A DNA stretch of 60,485 nucleotides from Firmicutes bacterium HGW-Firmicutes-3 (GCA_002841435.1 PGZS01000004.1:1-60485); one strand, 5' to 3'. Positions 469 to 18,774 are shown, counted from the first letter of the stretch. The notes: generated from the letters alone by a model not told the origin. Program-made: numbers and translations.

Positions 469-541
469 GTATAACAGCGAGTTGACGACATGGCCTTTTA
501 ATCGGACGGATGACACATCGTCAACTCACAGAATGTTAGCT
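469..541 (+). repeat. attC-like site 1
   Basis: GTATAAC..GAGTTGACGA...TCGTCAACTC..GTTAGCT; perfect 10-bp inner arms flanked by AAC/GTT boxes. Confidence 0.8.
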
Positions 542-1474: not shown

Positions 1475-1542
1475 CCACAGCTTTCAGCCTAAGATAGGAG
1501 TTATCTAAGGCTGAAAGCCGTCGTGAGTGCCAGACGTTATGT
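1475..1542 (+). repeat. attC-like site 2 with long apical hairpin
   Basis: GCTTTCAGCCT(1480-1490)...AGGCTGAAAGC(1508-1518) inverted repeat, then GACGTTATGTG. Confidence 0.6.
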
Positions 1543-1570
1543 GAAAGACTCTGTTTAGAAAGGTGAAATA

Positions 1571-2230
1571 ATGAAAAAAAGAATTAAGAAGAGCTACAAA
1601 AGGAAAGATAGTTTTCTAGTAGATATGTGGGAGTTCATATTTAGGTTATTAGGATATGTATCCCTTTTCTTTATAGTCAAAAAAATCAAAAGAAATATTT
1701 CGCATAGATTTGTTGATTTTTGGGTTATTGGTAATTTTATGTTTGCAATAATATCATCTATATTGGTTTACTATATAAGCGATTATTACCTTTTACTTAA
1801 GATTACATTGTCAGTTTATGGATTTTTAAGAGTCTTTGAAGTTATAATATATCAAATTAATGTTGTGTTATTTGACCCATACAGATCGCAAAAATCTGGA
1901 GAAAAATATAGGGTGAAATCGATTAGAAGAATAATTTTGGCCCTTTTTCATAATTATATAGAGATAATGTTTTGGTTCGCGACAATTATGAGTACTATTG
2001 CTGTTATTTCTTCCGTTACGATTAATGCCACCTGGATAGAATATATTACTTCTACCATATTATGTGTAGCAATATTTGATAGGTCTGGAATTGAAAGCAT
2101 TATTGAAGGGAATATGTCAATAATAACTCAACTTGTCTTTCTTGAGATTGTATCTGGACTGATTATGACTATTATATCAATAGCCAGATTTATTGGGATT
2201 TTACCGTCTGTTGATGAGATTGACGGATAG
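1571..2230 (+). CDS. hypothetical membrane protein (cassette gene)
   Basis: 219-aa ORF with several hydrophobic segments between attC-like sites. Confidence 0.65.
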   Translation: MKKRIKKSYKRKDSFLVDMWEFIFRLLGYVSLFFIVKKIKRNISHRFVDFWVIGNFMFAIISSILVYYISDYYLLLKITLSVYGFLRVFEVIIYQINVVLFDPYRSQKSGEKYRVKSIRRIILALFHNYIEIMFWFATIMSTIAVISSVTINATWIEYITSTILCVAIFDRSGIESIIEGNMSIITQLVFLEIVSGLIMTIISIARFIGILPSVDEIDG

Positions 2231-2243
2231 TTGACGTCCTTCA

Positions 2244-2334
2244 CATAACACGACAATTCCCATCATGCCCACAATCTCTATCGCTTTGGGACACTGAATG
2301 GATGGGCAAGACTGGAACTGCGGGAACGTTATAC
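2244..2334 (+). repeat. attC-like site 3
   Basis: CATAACACGACAATTCCCATCATGCCCA...TGGGCAAGACTGGAACTGCGGGAACGTTATAC. Confidence 0.8.
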
Positions 2335-2393
2335 GAAATTCTGGGGCATAGTTTTGAAGCGTAGTAGTATAAAATCATAAGGGGGTTATTAAT

Positions 2394-3233
2394 ATGTGGG
2401 AATCTGATAATCATGTAAGAATTGGCATAATTGGTGCACTAATTACGTTAGTACTTTTTATACCCTTAAGTTTTATTCTAAAATGGCCGTATACAATTAT
2501 TTTAATTTTATTGTTGGCTTTACTAGTATTTTTTACAGCATATATTTTTGGAGGAGTAAAATCAAGTGTTAAATGGATTGTTTATACTTGCGCTATTTGT
2601 GGTTTTGCTTCATTAGCTCATTATATTAGTTGCTGGTTACAATTGAATAATTTAATTTCACCAGAAATTCAGAATTTGGTTTCTTATGCTTTATTAGCTA
2701 CTTTTTCTTATTCTAGTTATAAATTAACTCTTAGGGTATTTAGAAAGTTTGAAGGCGCTTTGCAACTAGAGAATAACGAACATATTCTTACAGAACATGA
2801 TTTAGTGGAACTCGAAAGAAAATATAAAAAAGGTGCTATCTATTTAATTGAACCCAAAATGTTTGATGTGGATTTTGTTTTCAAGATCATTATAAAAAAC
2901 AATAATATATTTTATTGTAGGGTAGGTGGACAATTTTATGAAGTTGATGAGATTTCATTGAAATATTCATGTGAAGTTGACGAAAACGTACTTTTGAGTG
3001 ATAAATCAAATTATAAAATACAGCTTAATTTAATTAGGAGTATTTCATTAAATAGAAAGAAAAGTAGGCATACTGGGGCTTTTCCTAACAACGGTATAGT
3101 ATATATTTCCATTGATAATGAGAAAAAGGTAAAAAAATATATTATTCATCCAATAAATGAGTATGATGAAGTTAAAGAGTTTTTTGAAAAAATACAAAAA
3201 ATCACGGTAGAAGAGAAAAAGGTTTTTGTTTAA
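2394..3233 (+). CDS. hypothetical membrane protein (cassette gene)
   Basis: 279-aa ORF, N-terminal TM segments. Confidence 0.65.
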   Translation: MWESDNHVRIGIIGALITLVLFIPLSFILKWPYTIILILLLALLVFFTAYIFGGVKSSVKWIVYTCAICGFASLAHYISCWLQLNNLISPEIQNLVSYALLATFSYSSYKLTLRVFRKFEGALQLENNEHILTEHDLVELERKYKKGAIYLIEPKMFDVDFVFKIIIKNNNIFYCRVGGQFYEVDEISLKYSCEVDENVLLSDKSNYKIQLNLIRSISLNRKKSRHTGAFPNNGIVYISIDNEKKVKKYIIHPINEYDEVKEFFEKIQKITVEEKKVFV

Positions 3234-3262
3234 TTGTGTAGCTGCATTATCGTCCGAACTTC

Positions 3263-3374
3263 CTATAACAAAGCACTCAAGTCCGCTTTGGCTTGAGAAG
3301 ATAGCCAAAGCACATTCCTTCACCAAACCAGGTCTGGTTAGGCTTAGGAGCGTTTTGAATGGGAAACGTTAGGT
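3263..3374 (+). repeat. attC-like site 4
   Basis: CTATAACAAAG...internal GCTTTGGCT/AGCCAAAGC...GGGAAACGTTAGGT. Confidence 0.7.
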
Positions 3375-3431
3375 GATACAAGTTATTTTGTCTTTTGTGG
3401 AATTCTATGCTCAGCAAAGGGGGAGTGTTAT

Positions 3432-3995
3432 GTGAGAAAAGAACATATTCTAATTTTGGTCTTAGTTATATTCAGTATTGTTCTCATGCTATTGATTTTT
3501 TATAAGTATGGAGAAGTAAACTCATTAAGTCAGGAATTAATGAAGGATAAAGCAGAATACTTAAATGAAATTGAAACAACTAAAAATGTCCTTAAAGTTG
3601 TAATGAACGACAAAATAATACTAAAGGATGAACAAAAAACACTTAAGGGCACTATTGATGCATTGGAGAAAGAAAAGGAAGTATTAAATAATATAATACA
3701 AGAATTAATTACAATTGATGCTGCGTCCATAGAATGGTTAAAATATAGTGGAATTAGTGACTATACTCAAATATCTGAAGATTTAAGATTACATCCTGAA
3801 TTGATTCCTTATGATGGTGTATTAGGAGGAACAATGGCTTTTACCAATATATATGTTTTGAATGATAAATGGATTTATGCAAGGTTTGAAGATGGGCATA
3901 TTCAAGGGTATGGTATATATGAATATACAGTTGATCAGTTTATGAATATCTCATGGAAAATTATAGATTCTGTTTTGGATGGGAATGAGAACTAG
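3432..3995 (+). CDS. hypothetical membrane-anchored coiled-coil protein
   Basis: Single N-terminal TM followed by Glu/Lys-rich coiled coil. Confidence 0.6.
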   Translation: MRKEHILILVLVIFSIVLMLLIFYKYGEVNSLSQELMKDKAEYLNEIETTKNVLKVVMNDKIILKDEQKTLKGTIDALEKEKEVLNNIIQELITIDAASIEWLKYSGISDYTQISEDLRLHPELIPYDGVLGGTMAFTNIYVLNDKWIYARFEDGHIQGYGIYEYTVDQFMNISWKIIDSVLDGNEN

Positions 3996-4028
3996 TTTTA
4001 GTATATAGCAACTTCCATAACTTACATC

Positions 4029-4093
4029 GCCTAACAGCATGTTGACAACACTCTATCTGCTAACCGAGTACGGGGTCGCATTAGCCGTTCGCA
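4029..4093 (+). repeat. attC-like site 5, 5' half only
   Basis: GCCTAACAGCATGTTGACAACACT...GGGGTCGCATTAGCCGTTCGCAAA closely matches the left part of site 8 but lacks the right arm and GTT box. Confidence 0.7.
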
Positions 4094-4158
4094 AAAGTGT
4101 AATAAATTTGTAGTTGTAAAAAAAATAAAAAAATACATTTAGAAAAGGAAAAGAAAAA

Positions 4159-4935
4159 ATGAAAAGAATGACATGGAACCTAATAATTATAATGGTATTA
4201 CTTAGTGGATGTGGTAATAATAGTACTAAAGAAACGGAAATTGGGCTATTAGACAATACAATTGCGCAAACTATAGAAACTACAGAAAATGTAACGAAGG
4301 AGAAAGAAGAAATGTCACCCCCTATAATAGAATTAATTGGAGCAGATACAGTTGAATTGGTTATTGGTGAACTATATAGTGACGAAGGAGTTAAAACAAG
4401 TAATAAAAAAGATGGGGAATTAAATGTATCTATAGAAGACAATATTAATTATCTTAAAAAAGGAGTCTATGAAATTACGTATACAGTCATAGATGAAGAT
4501 GGTAATAGTTTGCAAAAGAAACGAGAAATTGTGATTAATCCGATTGTGATATTAACAGAAAATGAGATAACAACAATAATCGAAGAAATCGAACCGCCCT
4601 TTGAAAGTGCAGGACAAAATTTTGCATTAGCATTTAAATTAACAATTATGAATAATTCGATAGATACAATAGAAGTACCTCCAATGTTTATATTTGAAAA
4701 CAAAGACATTGATGAACATGAATTTAATAGTAAAGTCATAACGCAGTTTCCAATTGATAAATTAAAAAGTGGAGAAACAACTACAGAGCTGTTAAAATTT
4801 GTTTATGAAGACAATCAAGATGATTTGATGAATTCGCAAAAAATAAAATTTAATTATTCATCAGATGGGACATACACTGAATTTCCATATGAAATCAATA
4901 TAAGAATTGCTGACTTTGTAGGTGATGCAAGGTAG
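4159..4935 (+). CDS. lipoprotein with DUF5011/bacterial Ig-like domain
   Basis: Signal peptide with lipobox LLSGC; IELIGADTVELVIGELYSDEGV...YTVIDEDGN motif. Confidence 0.75.
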   Translation: MKRMTWNLIIIMVLLSGCGNNSTKETEIGLLDNTIAQTIETTENVTKEKEEMSPPIIELIGADTVELVIGELYSDEGVKTSNKKDGELNVSIEDNINYLKKGVYEITYTVIDEDGNSLQKKREIVINPIVILTENEITTIIEEIEPPFESAGQNFALAFKLTIMNNSIDTIEVPPMFIFENKDIDEHEFNSKVITQFPIDKLKSGETTTELLKFVYEDNQDDLMNSQKIKFNYSSDGTYTEFPYEINIRIADFVGDAR

Positions 4936-4952
4936 TTTCCGTTGGAGGCATC

Positions 4953-5045
4953 GTATAACACGACAATTTCCATCTTTTCCCACTATAATAAATGAGTTTG
5001 GGATGTTTGAAGACAGGCACGATGGAAACTGCGGTAACGTTATAA
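4953..5045 (+). repeat. attC-like site 6
   Basis: GTATAACACGACAATTTCCATC...GATGGAAACTGCGGTAACGTTATAA; inverted arms. Confidence 0.85.
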
Positions 5046-5151
5046 GACATGGCGGTATTCGGGGTCACACTTTAGGGTCTTCCTTATGAAAATTGACTTG
5101 TTAATTATTTTCTAATCCCTTATCACTATTTAATTTAGGAGATGATTTGTT

Positions 5152-5400
5152 ATGAAAAAGAATGGAAAAACAATTATACGCTTATTCGCTGGGCTTATTC
5201 TTATTGTAGGTTTGTTTGTATATGGCAACAAAGCTGTTATATTTCAATGTGGTAACCCGATTCCATATATAGCAAAATTTTTTTCACTAGACAACGGCAT
5301 CACATATGTAGATGTATTTGATGATAAAAGTGAGTATATTACTAAAGGAGATACTAGCGATGATCTTTTTCAATTTGTAGAAGATGAATATATGGAGTAA
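5152..5400 (+). CDS. hypothetical small membrane/secreted protein
   Basis: 82-aa ORF with N-terminal hydrophobic segment and upstream AGGAG-like sequence. Confidence 0.5.
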   Translation: MKKNGKTIIRLFAGLILIVGLFVYGNKAVIFQCGNPIPYIAKFFSLDNGITYVDVFDDKSEYITKGDTSDDLFQFVEDEYME

Positions 5401-5534
5401 TCTTTATAGAGCAAATGGGTAATGGATCTGTATTTGGGTCTGACACACAAATGGTAATGTTAACATCTTAGATATATTGGCGATACTATAAGGTATGGTC
5501 ATTGACGATTAAGTAAATAAAAAGACGTCTCTAC

Positions 5535-5624
5535 ATCTTATAAAAAAGTACTCCTGATATTTCACAACCTAAGATAAGAGCTATCTAAGGTTGTGAAATA
5601 TCAGGAGTACGTGAGACGTTATGT
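5535..5624 (+). repeat. attC-like site 7 with 23-bp perfect hairpin
   Basis: GTACTCCTGATATTTCACAACCT (5548-5570) and exact reverse complement (5588-5610), then GAGACGTTATGTG. Confidence 0.75.
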
Positions 5625-5672
5625 GAAATATATTACTATGTTTTTATAATTAACTAAAAGGGGAGATATATA

Positions 5673-6248
5673 ATGAAATATTTTAAAAAGTTGGTAGGGA
5701 AAGAGATATATTTATCACCAATGAATCCGGATGATTATGAGATTTATTGTGAGTGGATTAATGATTTAACAACATGTATTCCATCTGGTGTAGCAACTAA
5801 TAATTATACTTTATATCAAGAAAAGGATGCACTAAAAAAGATTTCTGAAGGTCAGGCATTTGCGATTGTAAATCTTAATAATGATGAAGTGATTGGTAAT
5901 TGCTCACTACTGGATGTTAATAATATACACGGAACAGCTGAACTAGGTATTTTTATTGGTTCTGATCAAAACAGAAATAAGGGTTATGGGACAGAAGCCT
6001 CTAAACTTTTATTAAACTATGGATTTAAATTATTAAATCTTAATAATATTATGATACGTGTCTTTGGATTTAATCAAAGAGCACTTAAATCTTATTTAAA
6101 CATTGGATTTAAAGAGTTCGGTAGAAGAAGAGAAGCGTTTCTAATTAATCAAAGCTATTACGATGAAGTATATATGCAATTACTTAGAAAAGATTTTAGA
6201 AGTGATTTGTTAGACAAGCAGATTAATGATATCATTAATTTATCATAG
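5673..6248 (+). CDS. GNAT family N-acetyltransferase (RimJ/RimL-like)
   Basis: AELGIFIGSDQNRNKGYGTEASKLLLNYGF. Confidence 0.9.
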   Translation: MKYFKKLVGKEIYLSPMNPDDYEIYCEWINDLTTCIPSGVATNNYTLYQEKDALKKISEGQAFAIVNLNNDEVIGNCSLLDVNNIHGTAELGIFIGSDQNRNKGYGTEASKLLLNYGFKLLNLNNIMIRVFGFNQRALKSYLNIGFKEFGRRREAFLINQSYYDEVYMQLLRKDFRSDLLDKQINDIINLS

Positions 6249-6275
6249 CTATACAAGGCATCCGTAATATACTTC

Positions 6276-6403
6276 ACCTAACAGCATGTTGCCAACACTT
6301 TATCTGTTAACCGAGTCGGGGTCGCATTAGCCGTTCGCAAAGCTCACAGGCATGAGCCCGACCTGTAAGCAGATTGGCGTCGTCAACTCAAAGGACGTTG
6401 TGC
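6276..6403 (+). repeat. attC-like site 8
   Basis: ACCTAACAGCATGTTGCCAACAC...GTCGTCAACTCAAAGGACGTTGTGC. Confidence 0.8.
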
Positions 6404-6426
6404 GAAATAGTAAAGGAGCAAATAAT

Positions 6427-7191
6427 ATGAAAGATTCAAATAAAGACTTTTTAGACTCGTTGGATTTAATTGACCAAGAAATGGAAGAACATATTCCATA
6501 TGTTCTTCAAGATTTATGGGAACTTGGAAGTATTCCTGAGTATATCTACTTGCTAATTGACAAAAATGTAGATAAAAAAGGAATAAATAAAATCATTGAT
6601 TTTGGTTGCGGTAAAGGTGCTGTCTTGATTTATTTAGCAGTAAGACTGGATTTTCAAGGACTAGGAATTGATATTGTATCGGAATTTATCGAATCTGCAA
6701 ATCAACATGCTATTGAAAATTCAGTTAATAATCAAATTGATTTTAAAACAGGCGACATCTTAAAATATATAGACAAAGAAGAAAAACATGATGTTGTAAT
6801 TTACGGTTATGATTCAGGAATTCTTGGTGATGTAAATGAGACAATTCTACAATTGGGAAATCGTATACAAGATTCTGGCTATTTGATCTTGGAAATAGCC
6901 TTTACGGCAGATTCAAAAAATAGAATTGAGGGGTTACCAACAGAAAAAGAATTGATTGAACAACTTGATCAGAGTGGTTTAGATGTAATAGATAGAATAT
7001 TATGGGACGTTGATAAGATTACTACAATTAATGAGCAGAACAACAAATTTATAAACAACAGGGTTCAAGAGTTAATGGTCAAATATCCAGCAAAAAAACA
7101 GATTTTCGAACAGTATATGGACAATCAGATAAAGGAATGTAAACTAATTGAACACGAGATGATTTGTTCAACTTGGATATTGAAAAAATAA
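6427..7191 (+). CDS. class I SAM-dependent methyltransferase
   Basis: IIDFGCGKGAVLIYLAVRLDFQGLGIDIV; ATG at 6427 after the attC site. Confidence 0.85.
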   Translation: MKDSNKDFLDSLDLIDQEMEEHIPYVLQDLWELGSIPEYIYLLIDKNVDKKGINKIIDFGCGKGAVLIYLAVRLDFQGLGIDIVSEFIESANQHAIENSVNNQIDFKTGDILKYIDKEEKHDVVIYGYDSGILGDVNETILQLGNRIQDSGYLILEIAFTADSKNRIEGLPTEKELIEQLDQSGLDVIDRILWDVDKITTINEQNNKFINNRVQELMVKYPAKKQIFEQYMDNQIKECKLIEHEMICSTWILKK

Positions 7192-7198
7192 CTACTTC

Positions 7199-7272
7199 GC
7201 ACAACTGAGAATTGATGACATGGACAGTAACAAGGCTGGATGTCCACGTCGTCAACTCACAGGACGTTATCT
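7199..7272 (+). repeat. attC-like site 9
   Basis: GCACAACTGAGAATTGATGACATGGACA...TGTCCACGTCGTCAACTCACAGGACGTTATCT. Confidence 0.85.
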
Positions 7273-7301
7273 GCAATCAGTAAAGAAAGAATAGGTTTAA
7301 A

Positions 7302-7772
7302 ATGAAGGAATACCAAAATGCATTAAAGATAATGAATGAGTTGTTCGCAAAAGATTGTCAGTTTTCTTTAGCAACATCAAAAGATAATGTGCCATCGATA
7401 AGAATTGTAGATACATTTTATGATGAAGGATCATTTTACATAGTGACACATGCAAAATCTCAAAAGGTAAAAGAAATAAATGACAATGAAAATGTTGCTT
7501 TGTGCAGCAAACTGTATAGCTTTAAAGGACTTGCAGAGAATATAGGCCATCCTCTGAAACTAGAAAATCAGAAGATAAGAGAAAAGTTGATACATGCATT
7601 TCAAACTTGGTATTTTCAACATAATGATGAGAATGATCAATCAATGTGTATCGTAAGGGTTTTACTTCAAAAGGGATTTTTCTATAGTCAAGGAATTGGC
7701 TATAAAGTGGATTTTCAAGCAGAAAGCGCGGAGGTATTTCCGTTCAATTTTGAACAAGTAGAACTACCTTAG
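7302..7772 (+). CDS. pyridoxamine 5'-phosphate oxidase-like flavin-binding protein
   Basis: CQFSLATSKDNVPSIRIVDTFYDEGSFYIVTHAKSQKVKEI pattern. Confidence 0.85.
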   Translation: MKEYQNALKIMNELFAKDCQFSLATSKDNVPSIRIVDTFYDEGSFYIVTHAKSQKVKEINDNENVALCSKLYSFKGLAENIGHPLKLENQKIREKLIHAFQTWYFQHNDENDQSMCIVRVLLQKGFFYSQGIGYKVDFQAESAEVFPFNFEQVELP

Positions 7773-7817
7773 TGTTACTAAAGGCGTATTAAAAGCAAGA
7801 TAAACAAAACTGACTGC

Positions 7818-7933
7818 AGATAACAGAGCACTAGCAAAACATACTCTGTCACGTTATTTACATGAACTTTGCAAATCACGCGCCAAGCTACTAAGGCGGC
7901 ACGCTTACATTGCTAGTGTTCGGAACGTTATCA
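7818..7933 (+). repeat. attC-like site 10
   Basis: AGATAACAGAGCACTAGCAA...TTGCTAGTGTTCGGAACGTTATCA; arms CACTAGCAA/TTGCTAGTG. Confidence 0.85.
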
Positions 7934-8048
7934 GAAAGATGAGTCATTAGCCGCCCCGTCCATGGGCGGGTTTTAGCAAGTATATCTTGAGAGATTGAAT
8001 TATTGCTTGATAAGTTGAACAAAGGATTATATAGAGAGGAGGATATCT

Positions 8049-8513
8049 ATGAAAGTTCAAAAATGCATAAAAGAATCTTTTTCTGTTATAGGGAAAGAAG
8101 GTTCTACAAATGATGGAAACGGATTTATTCAAGAATTGTGGAATGATGCTAATTCTCATTTTAATGAAGTAGCTGAACTGGCAAAGAAAGCTGAAAATGG
8201 AAAATTAATTGGAATATGGGGTGTTATGTCCGATCTATCCCGGTCTTATATGCCTTGGGATGATAATTTTACGAAAGGGTATTATCTTGCAGGTGTTGAA
8301 GTTTCAGATGATGCCAGTGCTCCTCAGGGATGGGTGAAATGGACAATTCCATCGTATGAATATATTTATGTTAAAAATGATAGTCCGGATACATTTGAAA
8401 ATGTAATTGAATATTTAAATAAAAACAAGATTGACCTTGTAGGAGCTGTTCACGATTTCAATTGTCCTGAAAGCAAAGAAGCTTATATGTTTTTTCCAGT
8501 TAAAAAATTGTAA
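8049..8513 (+). CDS. GyrI-like/effector-binding domain protein
   Basis: Fold pattern GIWGVMSDLSRSYMPW..YLAGVEV..PSYEYIYV resembles GyrI-like domains. Confidence 0.6.
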   Translation: MKVQKCIKESFSVIGKEGSTNDGNGFIQELWNDANSHFNEVAELAKKAENGKLIGIWGVMSDLSRSYMPWDDNFTKGYYLAGVEVSDDASAPQGWVKWTIPSYEYIYVKNDSPDTFENVIEYLNKNKIDLVGAVHDFNCPESKEAYMFFPVKKL

Positions 8514-8639
8514 AGTTAAGCGTATAGAAAGAATTGTTTACAAACTAATAGAGTTTAAGTTCAAAGTTAGTAGCAGTCATAAGTTTGGTTTGGGGCGCCA
8601 CCGTTCATGACGGCTAGGCTTTGTAGGGCCTCATCCATC

Positions 8640-8834
8640 TGATAACAACGCGTCTTCGTAATGGGCTCGGGGGTCATTTTCATGATGTATTCCTCATAAG
8701 CTCATCATGAAGAAGGGCTTGCCCACAGCCGGAACCCTAACCAGAGTCGGTAGCTGCATTAGTCGATCTTAAGGTTCCCCGACATGAACAGTCACCTGTA
8801 ATGGTTCCGGCCGTCGCAGACGCCAACGTTAGAT
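8640..8834 (+). repeat. attC-like site 11, unusually long (~195 nt)
   Basis: TGATAACAACGCGTCT...AGACGCCAACGTTAGAT with internal CCGGAACC/GGTTCCGG arms. Confidence 0.65.
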
Positions 8835-8874
8835 GACATATTATCTTTCGGATATAAAAGAGAGGTGACTTTAA

Positions 8875-9426
8875 TTGGATGATGTAGTTACCAGTTTGGC
8901 AGAACATTTGAATAAGGAAAATATTATATGGGGTATAGGTGGTTCATACTTATTAAAGGAATATGGTATCGTTGATGAAGTTCATGACTTGGATATCATT
9001 GTTTCTGAGGAGGATGTGAAGAAGACCATCGAGATTCTTAATTCTATAGCTGAGAGGAAGACGATACCTGTTAAGAATGAATATAGAACGAAGAACTTCC
9101 ATATATATTCCTACAGAGGTGTGAGTATTGATGTAATGTCTACTTTTCGAATTGAGCATACTAATGGTGTTTATGAGTTCTTGTTAGATGATCAGTCGAT
9201 TGTCTTAAAGCAGCTGAAACAGGGAGTAATTATACCCTTTACAAGTTTAGAAGATTGGCTCATTGCATATAAATTGATGAAAGGACGAGAAGAAAAAGTC
9301 GAGCTGATAGAGAATTATTTTAGAACAGAAGGTTTGAATCACAAAGAACTTCTTGAAAGAACAATTAACCAAGAATTGCCTGAAGAGATTAAAGAGTATA
9401 TTAGGAACATACTTAAGAAAAATTGA
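8875..9426 (+). CDS. nucleotidyltransferase-like protein
   Basis: WGIGGSYLLKEYGI..EVHDLDIIVSEEDV resembles the NTase GG/S..D.D pattern; TTG start. Confidence 0.65.
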   Translation: MDDVVTSLAEHLNKENIIWGIGGSYLLKEYGIVDEVHDLDIIVSEEDVKKTIEILNSIAERKTIPVKNEYRTKNFHIYSYRGVSIDVMSTFRIEHTNGVYEFLLDDQSIVLKQLKQGVIIPFTSLEDWLIAYKLMKGREEKVELIENYFRTEGLNHKELLERTINQELPEEIKEYIRNILKKN

Positions 9427-9455
9427 AGTTTGCTAAAACTGTCAAGCTAATACGG

Positions 9456-9651
9456 CATCTAGCAGCGAGTTACCGATACGTGACAGTTAACGCTATTTTA
9501 TTAAGTATTAGAAAGATATTACAATCGTATACGTTTTACCGTATACATAAGGTGTTATGGTAGGAGACGAAGAATCACATCACATCGAGTTGACGATTTG
9601 GACAATAACAAGGATGGATGCCACACATCGCCAATTCACTGGACGTTAGCT
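9456..9651 (+). repeat. attC-like site 12, composite/hybrid
   Basis: Left half CATCTAGCAGCGAGTTACCGATACG at 9456; ~85 nt later GAGTTGACGAT...ATCGCCAATTCACTGGACGTTAGCTG. Confidence 0.5.
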
Positions 9652-9724
9652 GACATTGTTCAACTGGGTTTTGAATCGTACAGTATTATAAGTAAGTGTT
9701 AGCATTAAGGAAATAAAATTATGT

Positions 9725-10290
9725 ATGGGAGATTTGAAATTGAAAATTAAATGTAGGTATGTAGTGGTTATGGAAGATGGGGAAATTATACCACCAGGAA
9801 TATTGTCTGGGAAACTTTATAGTATTGAATTGTCAACAGGTAATATATTGGAAGATTTAGGAAAAGGGATTGATCCAAGGTTTAATCTTGAACCATATCC
9901 AGAGCATCAAATTAAGTCTGAAGGACCAGCAGGTATTCGTTGCAAAAAGGCATAGTTTATGAGGCTTATAATAATGATGGTCAATTATTACTGAATTTCA
10001 CACCTTTTTGTGGGAATAAGTCTAATGACTTGGAGTATGGATCCGGTGGAAGATGGCTCTACGGTTATGCAGATGACAGCAATATAAATCACTTAAAGAA
10101 CTACTTGTTTTCAGGAAGGAGACGACTCATTCAAGCGAGTAGAGATTTAGATTTCTTGGGCATAGACGGTGGAGATTATGTTCGTGTTTATGATTACTCC
10201 GATGCAACTATCACTTTACAGAATTGGGATGGAGATGTGCTAATGATATTCCAGTTATGCAAGGCAATAACAACTTATTTTCGCCACTAG
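9725..10290 (+). pseudogene. hypothetical protein, probable single gene split by 1-nt frameshift
   Basis: Two overlapping ORFs (9725-9955; 9940-10290) join as ...GIRCKKGIVYEAY if the A run at 9944-9948 had one more A. Confidence 0.45.
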
Positions 10291-10369
10291 GCAAATATAC
10301 GGTAGAACAATCCGCAATTACCTTGCTTAGGCTATCAGAGGTTAAATAGTGTATTATTGTCTAATGATT

Positions 10370-10427
10370 GTATAACAGAAATGAGCCACAACTTCCGCTG
10401 GAAACATCAACTCACAGGACGTTATGT
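10370..10427 (+). repeat. attC-like site 13 (short)
   Basis: GTATAACAGAAATGAG...CAACTCACAGGACGTTATGTG. Confidence 0.65.
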
Positions 10428-10476
10428 GACAATGCATGCTAGTAATAAAAACGTAAGGGTACAGTATTGTACAACC

Positions 10477-11598
10477 ATGAAATTATTAAAAAATATAAGG
10501 GGTGTTACCTTGAGGAAGAAGATTTATGTTTTATCATGTTTGGTATTAGCAATGATTAGTATTGTTGGATGTAAAGAAACTCATATACAATCTGAACAGG
10601 CAGATGTTGAGGTATTAGAAGTTGGAACCACAACTGAAGTAACTACAAAAGAGAGCCAAGAATCTGAATATTCATGGAATGATGATATTAATGAATATGC
10701 TATTTATGTGAATGATATTTATTATCCACTTGATAATCACTATATTTTTGAGACAGTATTAGAGGATGCTGAGGTTCAAGAATTTTCTGGGGAGTTTCCA
10801 TACCCGAGTGGAAAAATACACTTTGGAAATGGACTAAAAATCTCAACTTTCAATGTTAATGATGAAAGAGGTCAAGGAGAAACCATTTATAATATTTTGG
10901 CAACCAAGGATGCTAAAACACCAAGAGGTGTGGGTATAGGGGATACTCTATCTGATTTGCAAGAATCTTATAGTGAGCTAAAATATGAAGCAAATTGGGT
11001 TCGGGATGAAGAAAATCCAATGTTTAATAGAGTATATATCTATACAACTGAAGGAAGCAGTAAGTATATTGCATTTTTCCTATATGAAAAAGAAATTGTT
11101 ATGATAGCAGTTGAAGAAGGATTTGATTATATACCTGGTATAGATATAGAAAATAGTAATATTCTTGGGATTCAAGGTGTTCTTCGAGAAGTAGATAATA
11201 TCTCTTCCAAAGGGATGAATATACATTATTTTTATACAGATAGTGATGGAGAAGAAATAACACTTATAAATATATATGCTCGCTCTACTTACGAAGTAGA
11301 TATTGATGATGATGGAATTATAGAGTTAATGGTTTATTTGAATAATGAGGAAGATTGGCAATCAATAGGAATCTATGATGTGGTGAATGGAGAAATTTCT
11401 TATATTGATGTCAATAAAAAAATGGGGTGCAAATGGTCAAGGGGAGAAGAGAATTGTGCGAACATAAAACCCGAGTATAAAAAATGCATAGAAATAGGCT
11501 TTGAAAGAGATGACGATACTTATAGATCTGGGCTCTATAGGGTGGTAGATAATGAACTATTTTATATTTGCCCTTTTTCCGATGATGTGTTGATGTAA
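10477..11598 (+). CDS. lipoprotein, hypothetical (start 10477 ATG or 10510 TTG)
   Basis: Lipobox MISIVGCK; DIDDDGIIELMVY FG-GAP-like motif. The listed ORF start (10357) lies upstream of the attC site. Confidence 0.7.
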   Translation: MKLLKNIRGVTLRKKIYVLSCLVLAMISIVGCKETHIQSEQADVEVLEVGTTTEVTTKESQESEYSWNDDINEYAIYVNDIYYPLDNHYIFETVLEDAEVQEFSGEFPYPSGKIHFGNGLKISTFNVNDERGQGETIYNILATKDAKTPRGVGIGDTLSDLQESYSELKYEANWVRDEENPMFNRVYIYTTEGSSKYIAFFLYEKEIVMIAVEEGFDYIPGIDIENSNILGIQGVLREVDNISSKGMNIHYFYTDSDGEEITLINIYARSTYEVDIDDDGIIELMVYLNNEEDWQSIGIYDVVNGEISYIDVNKKMGCKWSRGEENCANIKPEYKKCIEIGFERDDDTYRSGLYRVVDNELFYICPFSDDVLM

Positions 11599-11982
11599 GG
11601 AGTATATCTATCATGCCCACGATGGCTATACCTAAATTAGAGGATGTTGATGGATGGATCAGTTAACAAGGATCAAATAGAAAGGATTTCTAAAGACATA
11701 ATAACAGATAAAAAATTCATTAACGAGGAGCTATTGGCACATATAAAAATGAATCAATTAAGTTTTAGTATACGAGATTTATCACCTTAATCGCCTTATC
11801 TATATATAAGAGTTGAATATATGATGAAAGATGGCAATACAAAGGTTTATTCATATAAGATAAGACAATGTAATGTTTATAGTATTTGGGATGATTTGAT
11901 AAAAGATGGGTGGCTTTAGATAAAAGATATTTAATATGGGTATATCTCAATATAGATAAGGAAAGTAAAACGGTCCGATATC

Positions 11983-12073
11983 TCATAACACGCCAATTTC
12001 CATCATGCCGAGGATTGTTATCGATTAGGATATAGATTGGATGGGCACGACGGAAACTGCGAGGACGTTAGGC
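11983..12073 (+). repeat. attC-like site 14
   Basis: TCATAACACGCCAATTTCCATC...GACGGAAACTGCGAGGACGTTAGGC. Confidence 0.85.
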
Positions 12074-12142
12074 GACTATGACCTTTGTAATGGTTTGAAA
12101 ATATATAATAATAGAAAAAACTACGGAAGTGAGGTGAGTAAT

Positions 12143-12808
12143 TTGAAAGTGAATGCTAGAATTTTTTATATACTAGTAACTATGCTGATTTTAGTAAGCT
12201 GTACTGGAAAGAAAGAAGATATTATTTTTAGGCAGATTTACACGGATAAGTATATTGACAATACGAAGATTGATATAGATGCTAAAATAATTGAGATTAG
12301 CAAATATTTAAAGAGCTATGAATTCCAAGGTGATATTGAAAAAAATCTTACTATTAATATTATCGATGGATATGATGAACTTACAAAATTAGGTATTGAG
12401 TTAGTTAGTGTTAAATTAGATTACGCATGGTTGGATGGATTTGTAGTTTACAGAAATAATGAATTAATAGGTTTGTTATACGGTATGAACGAGCAAGGCG
12501 TGTATATGACTGACTTGAATAATGACGGTAATATGGAAATTATATACCAATCAGAATTTGGATCAGGTATTAGTAGAACAATTATTAATTTACTTGATTT
12601 AGGAACTAATAAAGTATATAGTGCACAATATTATAATAATAATGATGGAATAATATTTGATGTAACACCTATAGGGGTAGCAGTATATTCATATTATTAC
12701 GAATTTGAAAGAAGATCTGAGGAACCAATAGGTTATTTAAAGTTGACAGAAGAAGGATTAGTAATAGATGGTGTTGACGCACCAAATTTACAGTTAATGA
12801 ATGACTAA
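12143..12808 (+). CDS. lipoprotein, hypothetical (TTG start)
   Basis: LILVSCTG lipobox; TDLNNDGNMEIIYQ motif. Listed start 12041 lies inside the attC. Confidence 0.65.
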   Translation: MKVNARIFYILVTMLILVSCTGKKEDIIFRQIYTDKYIDNTKIDIDAKIIEISKYLKSYEFQGDIEKNLTINIIDGYDELTKLGIELVSVKLDYAWLDGFVVYRNNELIGLLYGMNEQGVYMTDLNNDGNMEIIYQSEFGSGISRTIINLLDLGTNKVYSAQYYNNNDGIIFDVTPIGVAVYSYYYEFERRSEEPIGYLKLTEEGLVIDGVDAPNLQLMND

Positions 12809-12812
12809 AACT

Positions 12813-12853
12813 GACGGACGTAACATCGTCTATTAACTCACAGGACGTTATAT
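12813..12853 (+). repeat. attC-like site 15 (right half)
   Basis: ACATCGTCTATTAACTCACAGGACGTTATATAC. Confidence 0.55.
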
Positions 12854-13115
12854 ACAATCCCTACAGAATATAACTGGAGTCAACCAATTTATTGAAAGTC
12901 GAACATTATACATAAATTTCATAGGTTATGATATACCACTAAGCAAAATTGAAGGGGAATATTATTATGAGATAGAGGTTGATTCAAGTGGTTACGATAA
13001 AGTAGTTTATAATGGATTGGACAAAGAAGATGATAAGGTACTTTATAGTGCCAGATAAAGACATTGATGATTAATTAACCAATTGAAATAGAAAAGTTTG
13101 AATCATCGGGACTGC

Positions 13116-13192
13116 ATATAACACAGCTTTAGCAACATATGATTGAGGGATGAGAATAGGGTTTTGGAGTCGCCAACCCTAAAACGTTATAT
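13116..13192 (+). repeat. attC-like site 16
   Basis: ATATAACACAGCTTTAG...CCAACCCTAAAACGTTATATAC. Confidence 0.7.
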
Positions 13193-13287
13193 ACTAGATT
13201 CTAGCGAGGAGTATTTATTCGTTCGCCGTCCTTGGCTCACTAGTAAATGACAGATTAAATTAAAAATAATGAAGAGTAGGAGTGAAA

Positions 13288-14223
13288 ATGAGTATTCAAT
13301 CTTATATAATAAAAAAAATTCTTAGAAGAGTTGTACCAAAAGATGAAGATTTTAGCTTGAGAAGAAAGAAAACGGATGAATTAGCTGGGAAGAATTCGTT
13401 GGCTAAGAATGTTAGTATTAAAGAGGTTCAGTTAGGCAGTGTAACGTGTGAGTGGGCCTATATAGAAAATGCACCATTAGATAAAGCTATTATATATTTA
13501 CATGGGGGAGGATTTTGTATTGGATCCATAAATACATACAGACATTTTACTAGTAGATTAGCTAAGGCGACTGGTATTAGAGTATTATATGTGGAATACA
13601 GTTTAGCTCCAGAGCATCCTTTTCCTAGAGCATTAGAAGATGTAATTGCAGTATATCAAAGCCTTTTATCACAAGGAATATCTTCGGAAAACATAATTTT
13701 CATGGGAGATTCTGCTGGAGCAGGACTATGTTTATCTACAACGTTAGCCTTAAGAGACAGGGGAGAATCATTACCAACAGCCTTAATACTTTACTCACCC
13801 TGGACTGATCTTACCTTAACATCTAAAAGTTTAAAAACCAATGAAAAAAAAGATCCTTTAGTATTTGTAAATGACCAAAAAAAGCTGGTGAGGGCTTATA
13901 TAAAAGAAAAAGATGTAAGAAATCCATTGGTTTCTCCTAGGTTTGGAAATTTTAATAGATTCCCTCCAATGCTTATACATACAGGTACTGATGAGATATT
14001 ACTTGACGACTCATTAAATCTAGTAGAAAAGGCAAAAAAAGCTGGTGTAGAAGTAACCTTAAAATTATGGAAGGGAATGTTTCATGTTTTTTCAATTTTT
14101 CCTGACCACACACCAGAAGGTAAAAAATCGCTTAAGGAAGTTGTCACATTTATTCATAGTAAATGGGGATTGAATAATACCAGCAATTTATCTAAAGAAC
14201 AACAAAAACAATTTAAATTGTGA
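13288..14223 (+). CDS. alpha/beta hydrolase, HSL-type esterase/lipase
   Basis: YLHGGGFCIGS oxyanion motif, GDSAGAGLCL nucleophile elbow. Confidence 0.92.
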   Translation: MSIQSYIIKKILRRVVPKDEDFSLRRKKTDELAGKNSLAKNVSIKEVQLGSVTCEWAYIENAPLDKAIIYLHGGGFCIGSINTYRHFTSRLAKATGIRVLYVEYSLAPEHPFPRALEDVIAVYQSLLSQGISSENIIFMGDSAGAGLCLSTTLALRDRGESLPTALILYSPWTDLTLTSKSLKTNEKKDPLVFVNDQKKLVRAYIKEKDVRNPLVSPRFGNFNRFPPMLIHTGTDEILLDDSLNLVEKAKKAGVEVTLKLWKGMFHVFSIFPDHTPEGKKSLKEVVTFIHSKWGLNNTSNLSKEQQKQFKL

Positions 14224-14299
14224 AAATGGACAAAAAAGATATAAAAAGAAGTTTGGTTTAAGCAAGTACTAGATTTATGCTCCGCAGTCTTTGGTTCCA

Positions 14300-14336
14300 C
14301 AGCTAGAATCCATCGTCAACTCACAGGACGTTAGCT
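14300..14336 (+). repeat. attC-like site 17 (right half)
   Basis: CATCGTCAACTCACAGGACGTTAGCTAC. Confidence 0.55.
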
Positions 14337-14387
14337 ACCATTGCACATTTTTGAGAAATAAAAAGGTTGATTTTTTGGAGGATTGAA

Positions 14388-14810
14388 ATGAATAAAGAAA
14401 TCATAACAAAAGCAGGAGAAATTATAGAAAAGAATACTGGGGAACTAACTTTTTGCGTGCTGGCATTAATAGACCTGGATGGTTATCCAACAGTGTCAAC
14501 AATATCTGCATCAAAAGCCGAAGGTATCTACTGGATTACTTTCTGTACTGGTCTTGGAGGAACGAGAACCAATAGAATTAACAAGTGCAACCGTGCAAGT
14601 GTATGTTTTAATGCTATGGATTATAATATAACACTTGTGGGTACAATTGAAATATTAACAGACATGGATGTAAAAAGAGAAATGTGGTATGAGGGACTTA
14701 AAAATCATTTTAGTGGACCGGAAGATTCTAATTACTGTGTTTTACGTTTTAAAACAGAACGCTATAATCTTTTGATTGATTGGAAAGAGGCAAAGGGAAC
14801 TATAGATTGA
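14388..14810 (+). CDS. pyridoxamine 5'-phosphate oxidase-like protein
   Basis: LTFCVLALIDLDGYPTVSTISASKAEGIYWITFCTG. Confidence 0.8.
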   Translation: MNKEIITKAGEIIEKNTGELTFCVLALIDLDGYPTVSTISASKAEGIYWITFCTGLGGTRTNRINKCNRASVCFNAMDYNITLVGTIEILTDMDVKREMWYEGLKNHFSGPEDSNYCVLRFKTERYNLLIDWKEAKGTID

Positions 14811-14845
14811 TTGAAGTGTGACTAGGTAGGTCAATGAGCAACAGC

Positions 14846-14928
14846 AGCTAACACGTCAATTTCCATCAAGCCCGCGCTGGAGATCGCATTGGGAAGTTGA
14901 GTGGATTGACACGACGGGAACGTTAGAT
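14846..14928 (+). repeat. attC-like site 18
   Basis: AGCTAACACGTCAATTTCCATCAAGCCC...GACACGACGGGAACGTTAGAT. Confidence 0.85.
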
Positions 14929-14984
14929 GACAGTTCAATAAATAATAGCGACATGAGTCGCTTGTATAGGAGAGTGAATTACAA

Positions 14985-15330
14985 ATGGAAGATAGAAAAG
15001 CTTTATGGAATTCTAAACAAGGATTACTAAGGAACATAATTTAAAACCTGATAAATTTGACCAAGCGATTCATCCATTTATTGAACAGCACTCCATGTTG
15101 CATTCATCAGAACTGTCACAGGAGTAAAAAAACGAACAATCGCTTATGGCATGTGGCATTCAACTAGAATTGAAGATATATCAATAAATACTTTGGTCTC
15201 TGACGAAACTCAAGTCCTATATAATGATAATTGGTTAGAAAAAGTCAATTCAAGAACTATAGATACATGAAATGCATTAAAAGAAACAGAAATTCGTGAA
15301 TTAAGCCATCTTCTAACAATGTATTGCCAT
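14985..15330 (+). pseudogene. degenerate DinB-like protein gene
   Basis: AYGMWHSTRIEDISINTLVSDETQVLYNDNWLEK...T*NALKETEIRELSHLL, with in-frame stops/frameshifts. Confidence 0.55.
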
Positions 15331-15395
15331 ATTTTGCAAGCCTAAGGAACGTCGTTGTAAGAATTGCAGACTGCGGCAATACGAGGACGTTATAT
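15311..15395 (+). repeat. attC-like site 19
   Basis: TTCTAACAATGTATTGCCATA...TGCGGCAATACGAGGACGTTATAT; arms GTATTGCC/GGCAATAC. Confidence 0.8.
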
Positions 15396-15462
15396 GAAAT
15401 TGTTCCAATTGTTTTAGGGTAAGTTCTCTGGTGTTTTCATAGTTAGAATTGGAGGGGGAAAA

Positions 15463-16320
15463 ATGGATGCTCATATACGGGAAATATTAAAAAAGAATCA
15501 AATAAATGAATCATTTGTCAAATTAACTACCCATGGTATTGCAAATGAGATATACGCAACGCCGAATTTTATTTTAAGGATTCCTACAGATCATCCAGAA
15601 GCAAATTCTGACGCTTATACTGAATCTGTAGCAGCTCCATTGGCTAAGTTAAATGGAATAAAAACGCCAAAATTAATTTGTTTTGATGACTCTTTTAGTA
15701 TAATAAATAAAACATATTCTATTTGGGAAAGAGTTCATGGATTAACTCTTGGTGAAATTGATAATTATTTACAATATTCTAACACATGGCGAGAAATAGG
15801 CTTTGAGATTGGAAAATTACATATTAATATTAAAAACTGTGATGATCCTAATGGATGGCTTGATAATCCTGAGACTTTTAGAGAATATACAAAGGAAACA
15901 ATGATTAAAAGTTTATCTAACAGTGACCTAAATTCAACATATATATTAGGATTTATAGAAAAAAAGTATACTAATGATATCTATTCATATAAAAAATGTT
16001 TTGTTCATGGGGATACTAATGAGTTCAATTTTCTATGTAATGAAAATGACCAATTATTATCAGTAATTGATTGGGGTGACGCAGGTTGGGGAGATCCAGC
16101 AATTGATTTTTATATGATACCAATAGAAGTTATTGATAATGTGTTAGATGGATATTCTGAAATAGCAGGAATAAATATTGACTATAGATTTATATATCGT
16201 ATTATTTTTGACAAAATATGGGCAGCGATTGAACAAAATCAAGATATAAGAGGATTAGAAAAAAACGTAATAGAATTGGAAAGAAACTATGTCAAACATA
16301 TTTCCAAAACCAATTTGTGA
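15463..16320 (+). CDS. aminoglycoside phosphotransferase/choline kinase-like (APH family)
   Basis: FVHGDTNEFNFLCNENDQLLSVIDWGDAGWGDPAIDF. Confidence 0.9.
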   Translation: MDAHIREILKKNQINESFVKLTTHGIANEIYATPNFILRIPTDHPEANSDAYTESVAAPLAKLNGIKTPKLICFDDSFSIINKTYSIWERVHGLTLGEIDNYLQYSNTWREIGFEIGKLHINIKNCDDPNGWLDNPETFREYTKETMIKSLSNSDLNSTYILGFIEKKYTNDIYSYKKCFVHGDTNEFNFLCNENDQLLSVIDWGDAGWGDPAIDFYMIPIEVIDNVLDGYSEIAGINIDYRFIYRIIFDKIWAAIEQNQDIRGLEKNVIELERNYVKHISKTNL

Positions 16321-16603
16321 ATTACCAATTGCTGATATACCATTAAAAGGAATAGAAGCCTATTTATCCTAAGGCGAAGATTATCAGATTATTTTTATGC
16401 AATTTAACGAGGACTTAGATTTGATAGAACATAGCCATGAAAGCCAATGGGGTATCGTACTTGAAGGAACTATAGAACTTATAATTGATGGGATGAAATA
16501 TATATTTAAGAAAGGTGATAGATATTTTATTCCTAAGGATGTAAAGCATTCAGGAAAGATATATGCTGGGTATGCAGATATGACAATTTCCCATAAAATC
16601 TAA
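16289..16603 (+). pseudogene. cupin-domain protein with in-frame TAA
   Basis: MSNIFPKPICELPIADIPLKGIEAYLS*GEDYQIIFMQFNEDLDLIEHSHESQWGIVLEG...; TAA at 16370-16372. Confidence 0.75.
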
Positions 16604-16671
16604 ACATTGAAAAATGGTTTTCTGTTATCAAGCGAAAGCAAATAACTTAAAACTTTAAACGGGAGGTCAGT

Positions 16672-17772
16672 ATGAAAACAATACCTAAAATACTTGTAAT
16701 TGGAGCATCAGGTGTACTTGGTAAGCTTATTTGCCGGGAAACTTTAAGGGTATTTAATAATAATGTAAATCTCCTAGTTGGAGACTATAGAAGAGATAGG
16801 GGGAGAGCATTAGCATTAATGCTCGGTCCAAAAGCCGAGTACCAATATATTGATGCTTCAAACAGTAATAGTATCAAAGTAGCATTAAAGGATGTTTCAT
16901 GTGTAATTATCTCTATGAATCAGAATGAGCCTTTAATACAAACACAGTGCATTGAAGCGAAGATACATTGTATAGACGTGACAGCTTCTTCTGAGTTGTT
17001 GGATAAAGTCAAACCTCTTAACAAAAAAGCTATAGCAAGCAATATTGCACTGGTTATGTTTTCAGGGTTTTTCCCTGGGTTGTCAGGAATACTGATTAAA
17101 GATACATCATCGGATTTTGAACGTACTGATGAAGTTAATATTGGGTTACTGTCAAGTGTGAATGCTCAGGCTGGTTATTCCGGTTTTATTCAAATGCTGG
17201 AAGTCTGCCATAAACCCGTTGTTCTGAAACATAAGAATCAAGAAAAAACCTTTCCTGGGTTTTACCAGAAAACATATATGCATTTTTCTGAACCTTTCGG
17301 AAGAAAACATGTAAGACTGGTTAACTATAGTGAACGTGCGGTATTGGCTCAGTATTTGAACATCCCGATATTGAACTATTGGATTGGTTTGGAAAAAGAA
17401 GCATTGACGATGGCACTAGGTATACTGAAAAAAATAAGAGTAACAGCATTATGCCTGAAAAATAGAATATTGGGCAAGTTTTTTACGAAAGTGCTGTTTA
17501 AACATAATCCAGATAAGCCAGAAACAACAGCATTATCAATCAGTGTTCACGGAACTCAATGCGGCATATCAAAAACAAGAATACTTACACTTAAAGCATA
17601 TTCAGATTATGGAGTAACAGCTGCATTTAATGCAGCATTATGCTGGTATCTGGTATACCAGATGAGTTCAAAGAGTTTGGGAGTTCGTTTTCCTTTTGAA
17701 ATAGTAACTTTATCAGAAATTCTATCAATAATGGCAACTGAAGGGGTTACTATTGATGATAAATGGATATGA
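16672..17772 (+). CDS. saccharopine dehydrogenase-like NAD(P)-binding protein
   Basis: ILVIGASGVLGKLICRETL Rossmann motif; overall organisation of the family. Confidence 0.75.
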   Translation: MKTIPKILVIGASGVLGKLICRETLRVFNNNVNLLVGDYRRDRGRALALMLGPKAEYQYIDASNSNSIKVALKDVSCVIISMNQNEPLIQTQCIEAKIHCIDVTASSELLDKVKPLNKKAIASNIALVMFSGFFPGLSGILIKDTSSDFERTDEVNIGLLSSVNAQAGYSGFIQMLEVCHKPVVLKHKNQEKTFPGFYQKTYMHFSEPFGRKHVRLVNYSERAVLAQYLNIPILNYWIGLEKEALTMALGILKKIRVTALCLKNRILGKFFTKVLFKHNPDKPETTALSISVHGTQCGISKTRILTLKAYSDYGVTAAFNAALCWYLVYQMSSKSLGVRFPFEIVTLSEILSIMATEGVTIDDKWI

Positions 17773-18078
17773 ATTATCATCAAAAAATAATCAATTGATT
17801 GTTTTAAAACTGTTTAAACCGGATTTATTACTTCCATTTGGTATTAATAGTGTGATCATGGTTATAAATAATAAATGATCCAAAGCATAAATGATTTTAT
17901 AACAAAGACTTCTTATGGCTGGATATGTTTTGTGGTATGCTTTTTAAGTGGTTTCATAATGATGTTAAGAGCACAGAAAAAGTATAATGGTGGATTATTC
18001 TAACATAAATAACTGCCCATAATTGCTGTTATTTTATATGTAGGATTTATGAGGATGCTATGAATAAGGAGAGATTTA

Positions 18079-18615
18079 ATGAGAAAGAAACTTCATTTGA
18101 ATGAAAAAGTTTACAAAGAAATAATAAGCTGGATTAAAACAATTGGTTTAACACTCGTTATTGTTTTAGTCATTAATAAAGGTATCATAGTAAATGCATA
18201 TATTCCAACGTCGTCGATGGAAGAAACAATTATGACAGGCGACAGGGTGATTGCTGCTAGATTAGCCTACATAACAAGTGAACCGGAAAGAGGTGATATT
18301 GTTGTTTTTAAGAACCCAGATGACAAATCAATACTATATGTTAAAAGAATCATTGGTTTGCCAGGCGAAGAAGTAATAATTAAAGATGAGAATATATATA
18401 TTAATGGGGTACTATTAGAAGAAGAGTATATATTAGAGGCGATTAGGGGAGAGTTTGGTCCTTATACTGTACCGAATAGTAAATACTTTATGCTTGGAGA
18501 TAATAGAAATGGCAGTAAGGACTCAAGGGTATGGAATAATACTTATTTAGAGAAAGAAGATATAATTGGGAAAGTGATTTTTAGGTATTTTCCGAATTTG
18601 AAAAATTACAACTAG
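18079..18615 (+). CDS. lepB: signal peptidase I
   Basis: IPTSSMEETI (Ser), YVKRIIGLPGE (Lys), MLGDNRNGSKDSR motifs. Confidence 0.95.
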   Translation: MRKKLHLNEKVYKEIISWIKTIGLTLVIVLVINKGIIVNAYIPTSSMEETIMTGDRVIAARLAYITSEPERGDIVVFKNPDDKSILYVKRIIGLPGEEVIIKDENIYINGVLLEEEYILEAIRGEFGPYTVPNSKYFMLGDNRNGSKDSRVWNNTYLEKEDIIGKVIFRYFPNLKNYN

Positions 18616-18683
18616 TGGTTATAGTGTTTGGTATAGTTTAGTGAATATATTTATGGCTCTGGGATATTACCGCACAAAACAGC

Positions 18684-18774
18684 AGCTAATACGACAATTT
18701 CCTTCATGCTTGATGTGTATCGTTTTTGAAAGTTGAACGTTTTTATATGACGAAAACTAAGGGAACGTTATATG
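18684..18774 (+). repeat. attC-like site 20 (last clear site)
   Basis: AGCTAATACGACAATTTCCTTCATGC...ATGACGAAAACTAAGGGAACGTTATAT. Confidence 0.75.

Follow-up and report, generated by a model that had tools for sequence, protein, structure and literature searches.

In integrons, R boxes specific to each cassette follow from the integration of circular cassettes. Pairing between a cassette start and the attC of its own cassette over 9-11 nt has already been noted for most cassettes (PMC2727003), and the I2 helix of the integrase, which reads extrahelical bases, has been described as the innovation that enabled single-strand recombination (PMC7790495). In Firmicutes, complete integrons were reported as almost absent, with one complete integron and a few integrase-less arrays (PMC9024848). 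Here, the cassette array in a 60,485-nt stretch of the Firmicutes bacterium HGW-Firmicutes-3 genome (GCA_002841435.1, PGZS01000004.1:1-60485; this whole stretch is hereafter the window) was compared with related and with proteobacterial arrays. Its cassette starts pair with their own attC flanks well past the 7-nt R box, in related arrays typically to 19 nt with a nearly fixed mismatch at position 11, and the recombinases linked to such arrays lack I2.

Cassette starts and their own attC sites in the window

The array takes up the initial 19 kb of the window; its units are short, lie on the + strand and mostly hold a single gene, with an attC after each. An earlier note on this DNA had claimed that each start, read from GTT, is complementary to the flank of its own attC beyond the R box, and all the pairs that it listed were found. 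In a blind scan, in which every start was compared with all positions of 20 kb using words of 13, 16 or 19 nt, the own attC flank was the top or joint top partner for about 10 of the 19 starts; the starts that failed (535, 9645, 12067, 13186, 15389 and 18767) have truncated, degenerate or missing attC. For 16 start/own-attC pairs, three failures included, the cognate matches were compared with 100,000 shuffles. At positions 4-7, in the R box, 50 cognate matches were found against a shuffle mean of 32.4, as expected of an integron. Positions 8-19 gave 110 matches (shuffle mean 64, maximum 95) and positions 12-19 gave 76/128 (59%; shuffle mean 38, best of 100,000 equal to 68), so that past position 7, where the note had placed its decisive comparison, every shuffle scored below the cognate pairs. 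No excess pairing was present at positions 20-30 of the window (41 versus 48 in shuffles), and the match between an attC flank and the start of the next cassette at positions 12-19 was 25%, which is background. The cassette-specific R box, which the note had derived from circular-cassette integration, agrees with textbook expectation.

Some of the listed pairs were amended: the start placed at 12846 lies at 12847, the partner of start 8828 ends in TCTAGC at 9463, a degenerate R'', instead of AAC, and the attC of the pair 3368/4017-4035 has lost its R' half. The arms and attC sites of the window are as follows (R1 is the covariance model described below):

469..541, +, attC from R'' to R', R1 57.6 bits; truncated cassette to its left at the contig start
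1536..1554, +, cassette start arm GTTATGTGAAAGACTCTGT; 12/13 with 2231-2249 over the first 13 nt
2231..2249, +, left arm of cassette 1536, ending in R'' ACATAAC; attC 2243-2334
2328..2346, +, cassette start arm; 13/16 with 3251-3269, A/C at position 11
3251..3269, +, left arm of cassette 2328; attC 3263-3374
3368..3386, +, cassette start arm; 16/19 with 4017-4035
4017..4035, +, left arm of cassette 3368; attC without R' half, following cassette start lost
4953..5045, +, attC of a lipoprotein cassette whose start is lost, R1 72.5 bits
5039..5057, +, cassette start arm; 11/16 with 5526-5544, R'' TTATAAA
5618..5636, +, cassette start arm GTTATGTGAAATATATTAC; 17/19 with 6264-6282, mismatches at positions 5 and 11
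6264..6282, +, left arm of cassette 5618; attC 6276-6403
6397..6411, +, cassette start arm GTTGTGCGAAATAGT; 14/15 with 7191-7205, sole mismatch at position 11
7191..7205, +, left arm of cassette 6397; attC 7199-7272
7266..7281, +, cassette start arm GTTATCTGCAATCAGT; 15/16 with 7809-7824, sole mismatch at position 11
7809..7824, +, left arm of cassette 7266; attC 7818-7933
7927..7945, +, cassette start arm; 16/19 with 8628-8646
8628..8646, +, left arm of cassette 7927; attC about 8640-8834
8828..8846, +, cassette start arm; 15/19 with 9445-9463
9445..9463, +, left arm of cassette 8828, degenerate R'' (TCTAGC); attC interrupted
11983..12073, +, attC whose left arm pairs weakly with start 10421 (11/16), R1 87.9 bits
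12847..12862, +, cassette start arm; 13/16 with 13107-13122
13107..13122, +, left arm of cassette 12847; attC 13116-13192
14330..14348, +, cassette start arm; 15/19 with 14834-14852
14834..14852, +, left arm of cassette 14330; attC 14846-14928
14922..14940, +, cassette start arm; 13/19 with 15299-15317
15299..15317, +, left arm of cassette 14922; attC 15311-15395
18684..18773, +, last recognisable attC of the array, R1 37.5 bits

The attC sites of the window are typically 73-130 nt long with ...AAC / GTT... boundaries. A covariance model, R1, built from the bottom strands of eight of them matched 14 attC sites in the window and many more in relatives; an Rfam scan of the window gave no match. 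Cassettes that each end in a foldable attC with AAC/GTT boundaries, as in integrons, are thus present both in the window and in relatives. Among the products of the cassette genes are an acetyltransferase, methyltransferases, PNPOx-like proteins, an alpha/beta hydrolase, a phosphotransferase and a signal peptidase; the remainder of the window is ordinary chromosome. The integrase and attI lie outside the window, because the contig begins within the array. The window arms are more worn (the 59% at positions 12-19 given above) than those of contig C253 of the same genome and several attC are truncated; this array is probably an old, decaying part.

Other features of the array include an attC at 4014-4158 that lacks the R' half and the start of the next cassette, a near-identical attC being intact at 6276-6403, and two attC at 1478-1520 and 5550-5610 with unusually long near-perfect hairpins and the common core CCTAAGATA...TATCTAAGG. 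Between two attC, the stretch 15389-18691 holds a multi-gene unit without a cognate arm (phosphotransferase, cupin-like, saccharopine-dehydrogenase-like and signal peptidase genes), which probably represents several cassettes fused once attC sites were lost.

Arms and predicted hairpins in related and proteobacterial arrays

Of 96 relatives, 17 contained sites recognised by the attC model; all three genus mates were among them, as were G003 and G016, each a single-contig genome. The clostridial cassette set was assembled from consecutive attC taken without regard to arms, with the covariance model and a folding rule of this analysis. In its 159 cassettes from ten genomes (own included), 941/1272 positions matched at 12-19, against 466 +/- 19 (standard deviation; maximum 554) in within-genome shuffles. 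The modal arm in the related arrays is 19 nt, beyond the 9-12 nt of own-cassette pairing of canonical attC, and pairing usually ends at nucleotide 19-20; in the R-box-matched subset (n=102) the match is still 0.75 at position 19 but 0.25 at position 20. The arms are private to each cassette, with non-cognate and neighbouring starts at background. Among the 111 well-paired cassettes, the start has the consensus GTTA NNN G A (A/C) A, followed by eight private bases, and the left flank is its complement save for a C, not a T, opposite A11. At position 11, A is present in 99% of the well-paired starts and C in 98% of their partner flanks, which gives a T.G wobble on the bottom strand, the one on which known integrases act, and an A.C pair on the top strand. 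Both the sharp end of the arm at 19-20 nt and this near-invariant A/C "mismatch" go beyond what the earlier note had described. Bases 8, 9 and 11 are conserved as sequence and not merely as pairing, positions 12-19 are without sequence conservation, and a wobble bias toward the bottom strand is clear at positions 8, 10 and 11. G423, a genome from another family, has the identical pattern, with 19-20 nt arms and the wobble.

Seven pairs of homologous cassettes were compared, of which one was informative: its two cassettes, 67% identical, differ in their arms at both ends, yet within each cassette the arms remain complementary to one another, and five of the changes are two-sided. In this single case the outcome is as expected under selection on pairing. 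Just outside the 19-nt arms, motifs form matched end classes (e.g. in L089, L101 and L106) though they do not pair. The left and right motifs combine as TTCC with TA (41), GTC with TCGG (9) and TGAC with TGG (5); because they co-vary without pairing, attC plus both flanks may travel as one block.

The control comprised 80 loci around canonical intI genes, mostly of Beta- and Gammaproteobacteria, with cassettes extracted by the same arm-blind folding rule. The proteobacterial cassettes pair with their cognate flanks as far as position 12, lack the wobble and are at background beyond it. In the R-box-matched subsets the match is 0.83 at position 12 and 0.13 at position 13 for the proteobacterial cassettes (n=23), versus 0.96 and 0.93 for the clostridial ones, and over positions 13-19 it is 0.13-0.39 in canonical versus 0.75-0.93 in clostridial cassettes. 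The median arm is 19 nt in the clostridial and 12 nt in the canonical set (Mann-Whitney p about 4e-11), and the unusually long outer attC stem that the note had deduced is thereby borne out with both groups measured alike. Extrahelical-base-like bulges, counted by proxy from minimum-energy folds, were predicted in 27/109 clostridial versus 37/44 canonical attC, so that the extrahelical bases of canonical sites are mostly absent. Locus L152 (3147-10863, reverse complement), from a metagenome-assembled genome labelled Chloroflexi, holds nine consecutive cassettes with arms to exactly 12 (seven) or 13 (two) nt; the array has a clean canonical arm length and its IntI is 68% identical to IntI1. In the literature, arms longer than 11 nt, a wobble in attC or Bacillota integrons of this kind were not found among open papers. 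New here are about seven further base pairs and the fixed wobble; novelty is confined to these because an extension of 9-11 nt as such is already published (PMC2727003).

Stability was predicted with DNA energy parameters for isolated strands of attC with 20-nt arms. The predicted bottom-strand hairpin has -29.0 kcal/mol with the own start, as in the circle, -19.0 kcal/mol with the next start, as in the array, and -18.4 kcal/mol with a random start. The note had called for the folding of reconstructed cassette circles, and in 109/111 cassettes the own-start hairpin is predicted to be more stable than the next-start hairpin, by about 10 kcal/mol. The top-strand circle fold, at a predicted -24.1 kcal/mol, is about 5 kcal/mol weaker than that of the bottom strand.

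Recombinases linked to the arrays

Recombinases adjoin the arrays in several genomes. In G003, the first cassette begins about 66-70 bp past the stop of a gene for a 339-residue tyrosine recombinase, and the start arm of this cassette is complementary to the flank of its own attC. The first cassette start has a similar spacing past the recombinase stop in G016 and G002, with a cognate arm of 18/19 in G016, so that an attI beside the integrase, as in integrons, is found in these three relatives. The genome of the window has the same layout with a decayed recombinase: contig C284 (L102, G000:C284 2264-2653) carries a fragment of an array-type recombinase that has lost its N-terminal part and, by an internal deletion, some of the catalytic domain; attI-like sequence and cassettes come after it.

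The G003 enzyme has 31-34% identity to IntI1 and IntI4 and is without about 42 residues spanning the I2 insertion and RRHHM (of the reference sequences used, IntI1 is 100% identical to public records and IntI4 agrees with a PDB alignment where shown). The spacing from GKG to HxLRHS is 66-67 residues in the array-linked recombinases versus 107 in 56/66 canonical open reading frames, and the RRH motif is absent from the former, which are not IntI with I2. The cut-off of TIGR02249 (IntI family) was reached in none of the 96 relatives, single-contig genomes with arrays included, and the best NCBIfam match of the array-linked recombinase was NF040815 (Xer / XerA-type), just below cut-off. A small tree places the array-linked recombinases together (support 86/78), separate from canonical IntI (96/90) and from the other recombinases of the host. 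The few extrahelical-base-like bulges in clostridial attC are consistent with the absence from the enzyme of I2, the reader of such bases. When the clostridial integrase was sought in viral contigs, a single weak and distant match was obtained. At L084 (12120-12296, -), the G003 recombinase has about 60 additional N-terminal residues (GGKWLAKEKVWHLP...) without a Pfam match; similar extensions are present in G405 and G027, and none in G012 and G016.

Proposed mechanism, alternatives and comparison with known systems

While a cassette is a free circle, its attC bottom strand could form a hairpin whose outer stem measures about 19 bp, made of the 7-bp R box, the semi-conserved G8-A9-N10, the fixed T.G at position 11 and eight private base pairs. 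Integration would put the two arms at opposite ends of the cassette and leave the array attC facing the unrelated start of the next one, with a stem that should shrink to about 9-10 bp. The hairpin of the circle (the integration substrate) would be far stronger than that of the array (the excision substrate), and the long stem should aid both the folding of the circular cassette and its capture at attI. Since it would be lost on integration, the release of cassettes from the array should be the less favoured reaction, and a hairpin stronger in the circle would give a bias toward capture and stable arrays; a stem that is long in the circle alone probably tips the balance from excision to integration. 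The reaction is likely to be carried out by the tyrosine recombinase whose gene adjoins the related arrays. As a substitute for the landmarks that I2 reads in extrahelical bases, this enzyme may use the long stem and its asymmetric wobble, and the wobble may mark the arm or strand for cutting, the job of those bases in canonical sites. The results themselves comprise the pairing, its specificity and its 19-nt limit, the wobble, the difference in predicted stability, the contrast with proteobacterial integrons and the linkage to an I2-less recombinase; bottom-strand use, directionality, activity of the enzyme and the wobble as a polarity mark are inferred.

On balance the favoured explanation of the window array, taken as a whole with the circle-only stem, the capture bias and the I2-less enzyme included, is that its cassettes belong to a chromosomal integron with extended attC in a clostridial (Bacillota) lineage. 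More tentative, and somewhat doubtful, is a further proposal that clostridial integrons form a separate branch, whose integrase would recombine single-stranded attC hairpins without the I2 helix, the long circle-only stem and the fixed T.G replacing extrahelical bases for the choice of strand and direction; this may be a state that preceded I2.

Several points count against the favoured explanation. Wobbles at positions 12-19 have no clear bottom-strand bias (12 versus 8), so the sequence does not prove strand use, and wobble asymmetry was dropped as a proof of it. Integrase orientation varies (G042, G055), the extrahelical-base count is a proxy, the control set is mainly beta- and gammaproteobacterial, and the window array may be immobile because the integrase of its own genome is a decayed fragment. 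The well-paired arms in long arrays could, moreover, be relics, left from the birth of each cassette or kept equal by repair or replication templated on the folded strand, with a stem that has no present role. This is the main rival, although an unlikely one; private arms with sharp ends and outside motifs that co-vary between cassette ends though unpaired fit it. The position-11 mismatch is, however, kept in about 98% of well-paired cassettes, which argues against copying alone, as copying should erase it, and proteobacterial cassettes cycle likewise yet stop at 12.

The conservation of bases 8, 9 and 11 as sequence, not pairing alone, would also suit a larger protein-binding site. In that case the protein, be it the I2-less integrase or an accessory factor, would require a duplex of about 19 bp past the cut and would touch G8, A9 and position 11, with no circle/array bias selected. 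Positions 12-19 are not conserved in sequence, though, and the array partner is unpaired there, which makes such a site quite improbable. A role in RNA, with the start and end of the transcript pairing and thereby protecting or regulating the mRNA, would agree with arms that flank the gene, some of them with no more than a few bases between arm end and stop codon (window 7191); it is very improbable, given that the position-11 pair is an A.C mismatch in RNA, that the arm stem runs on from the attC stem without a gap, and that top-strand folds are predicted to be weaker by about 5 kcal/mol. As to an ordinary 9-12 nt attC extension plus chance or common ancestry, pairing of 9-11 nt is published (PMC2727003) and the proteobacterial sets reach 12, but the shuffles refute it and leave it a negligible probability: the match at 13-19 separates the clostridial from the canonical set, and non-cognate and neighbouring starts are at background.

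If the array is an integron of the favoured kind, its arms suggest a physical reason for easier cassette entry than exit, namely a hairpin that is long in the circle only. The role of I2 in single-strand recombination has not been directly testable so far because its deletion abolishes IntI1 (PMC7790495), and folded attC arrays beside a natural I2-less recombinase offer a system for testing whether I2 gave single-strand recombination. Searches keyed to I2-containing IntI would miss clostridial integrons of this type.

The integrase of Treponema integrons lies upstream of the cassettes and is co-oriented with them. The array-linked enzymes of G003, G016 and G012 resemble these in gene order and differ in it from canonical IntI. 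With IntI (TIGR02249; IntI1, IntI4/VchIntIA) they share membership of the tyrosine recombinases, a C-terminal ...PLD..L end and a position adjoining attI and the array, but they lack about 42 residues, I2 and RRHHM among them, and score below the family cut-off. Xer / XerA-type recombinases (NF040815), also without I2, are their closest NCBIfam family; unlike these, the array-linked enzymes associate with attC arrays and group apart on the tree. The clostridial attC, for their part, resemble those of class 1 and proteobacterial chromosomal integrons in the R''/R' AAC...GTT boundaries, the L stems, the asymmetric spacer and the variable loop, in having one gene and one attC per cassette, and in own-cassette complementarity past the R box; they differ in an arm of about 19 instead of about 12 nt, in the T.G fixed at position 11 and in extrahelical bases that are mostly absent.

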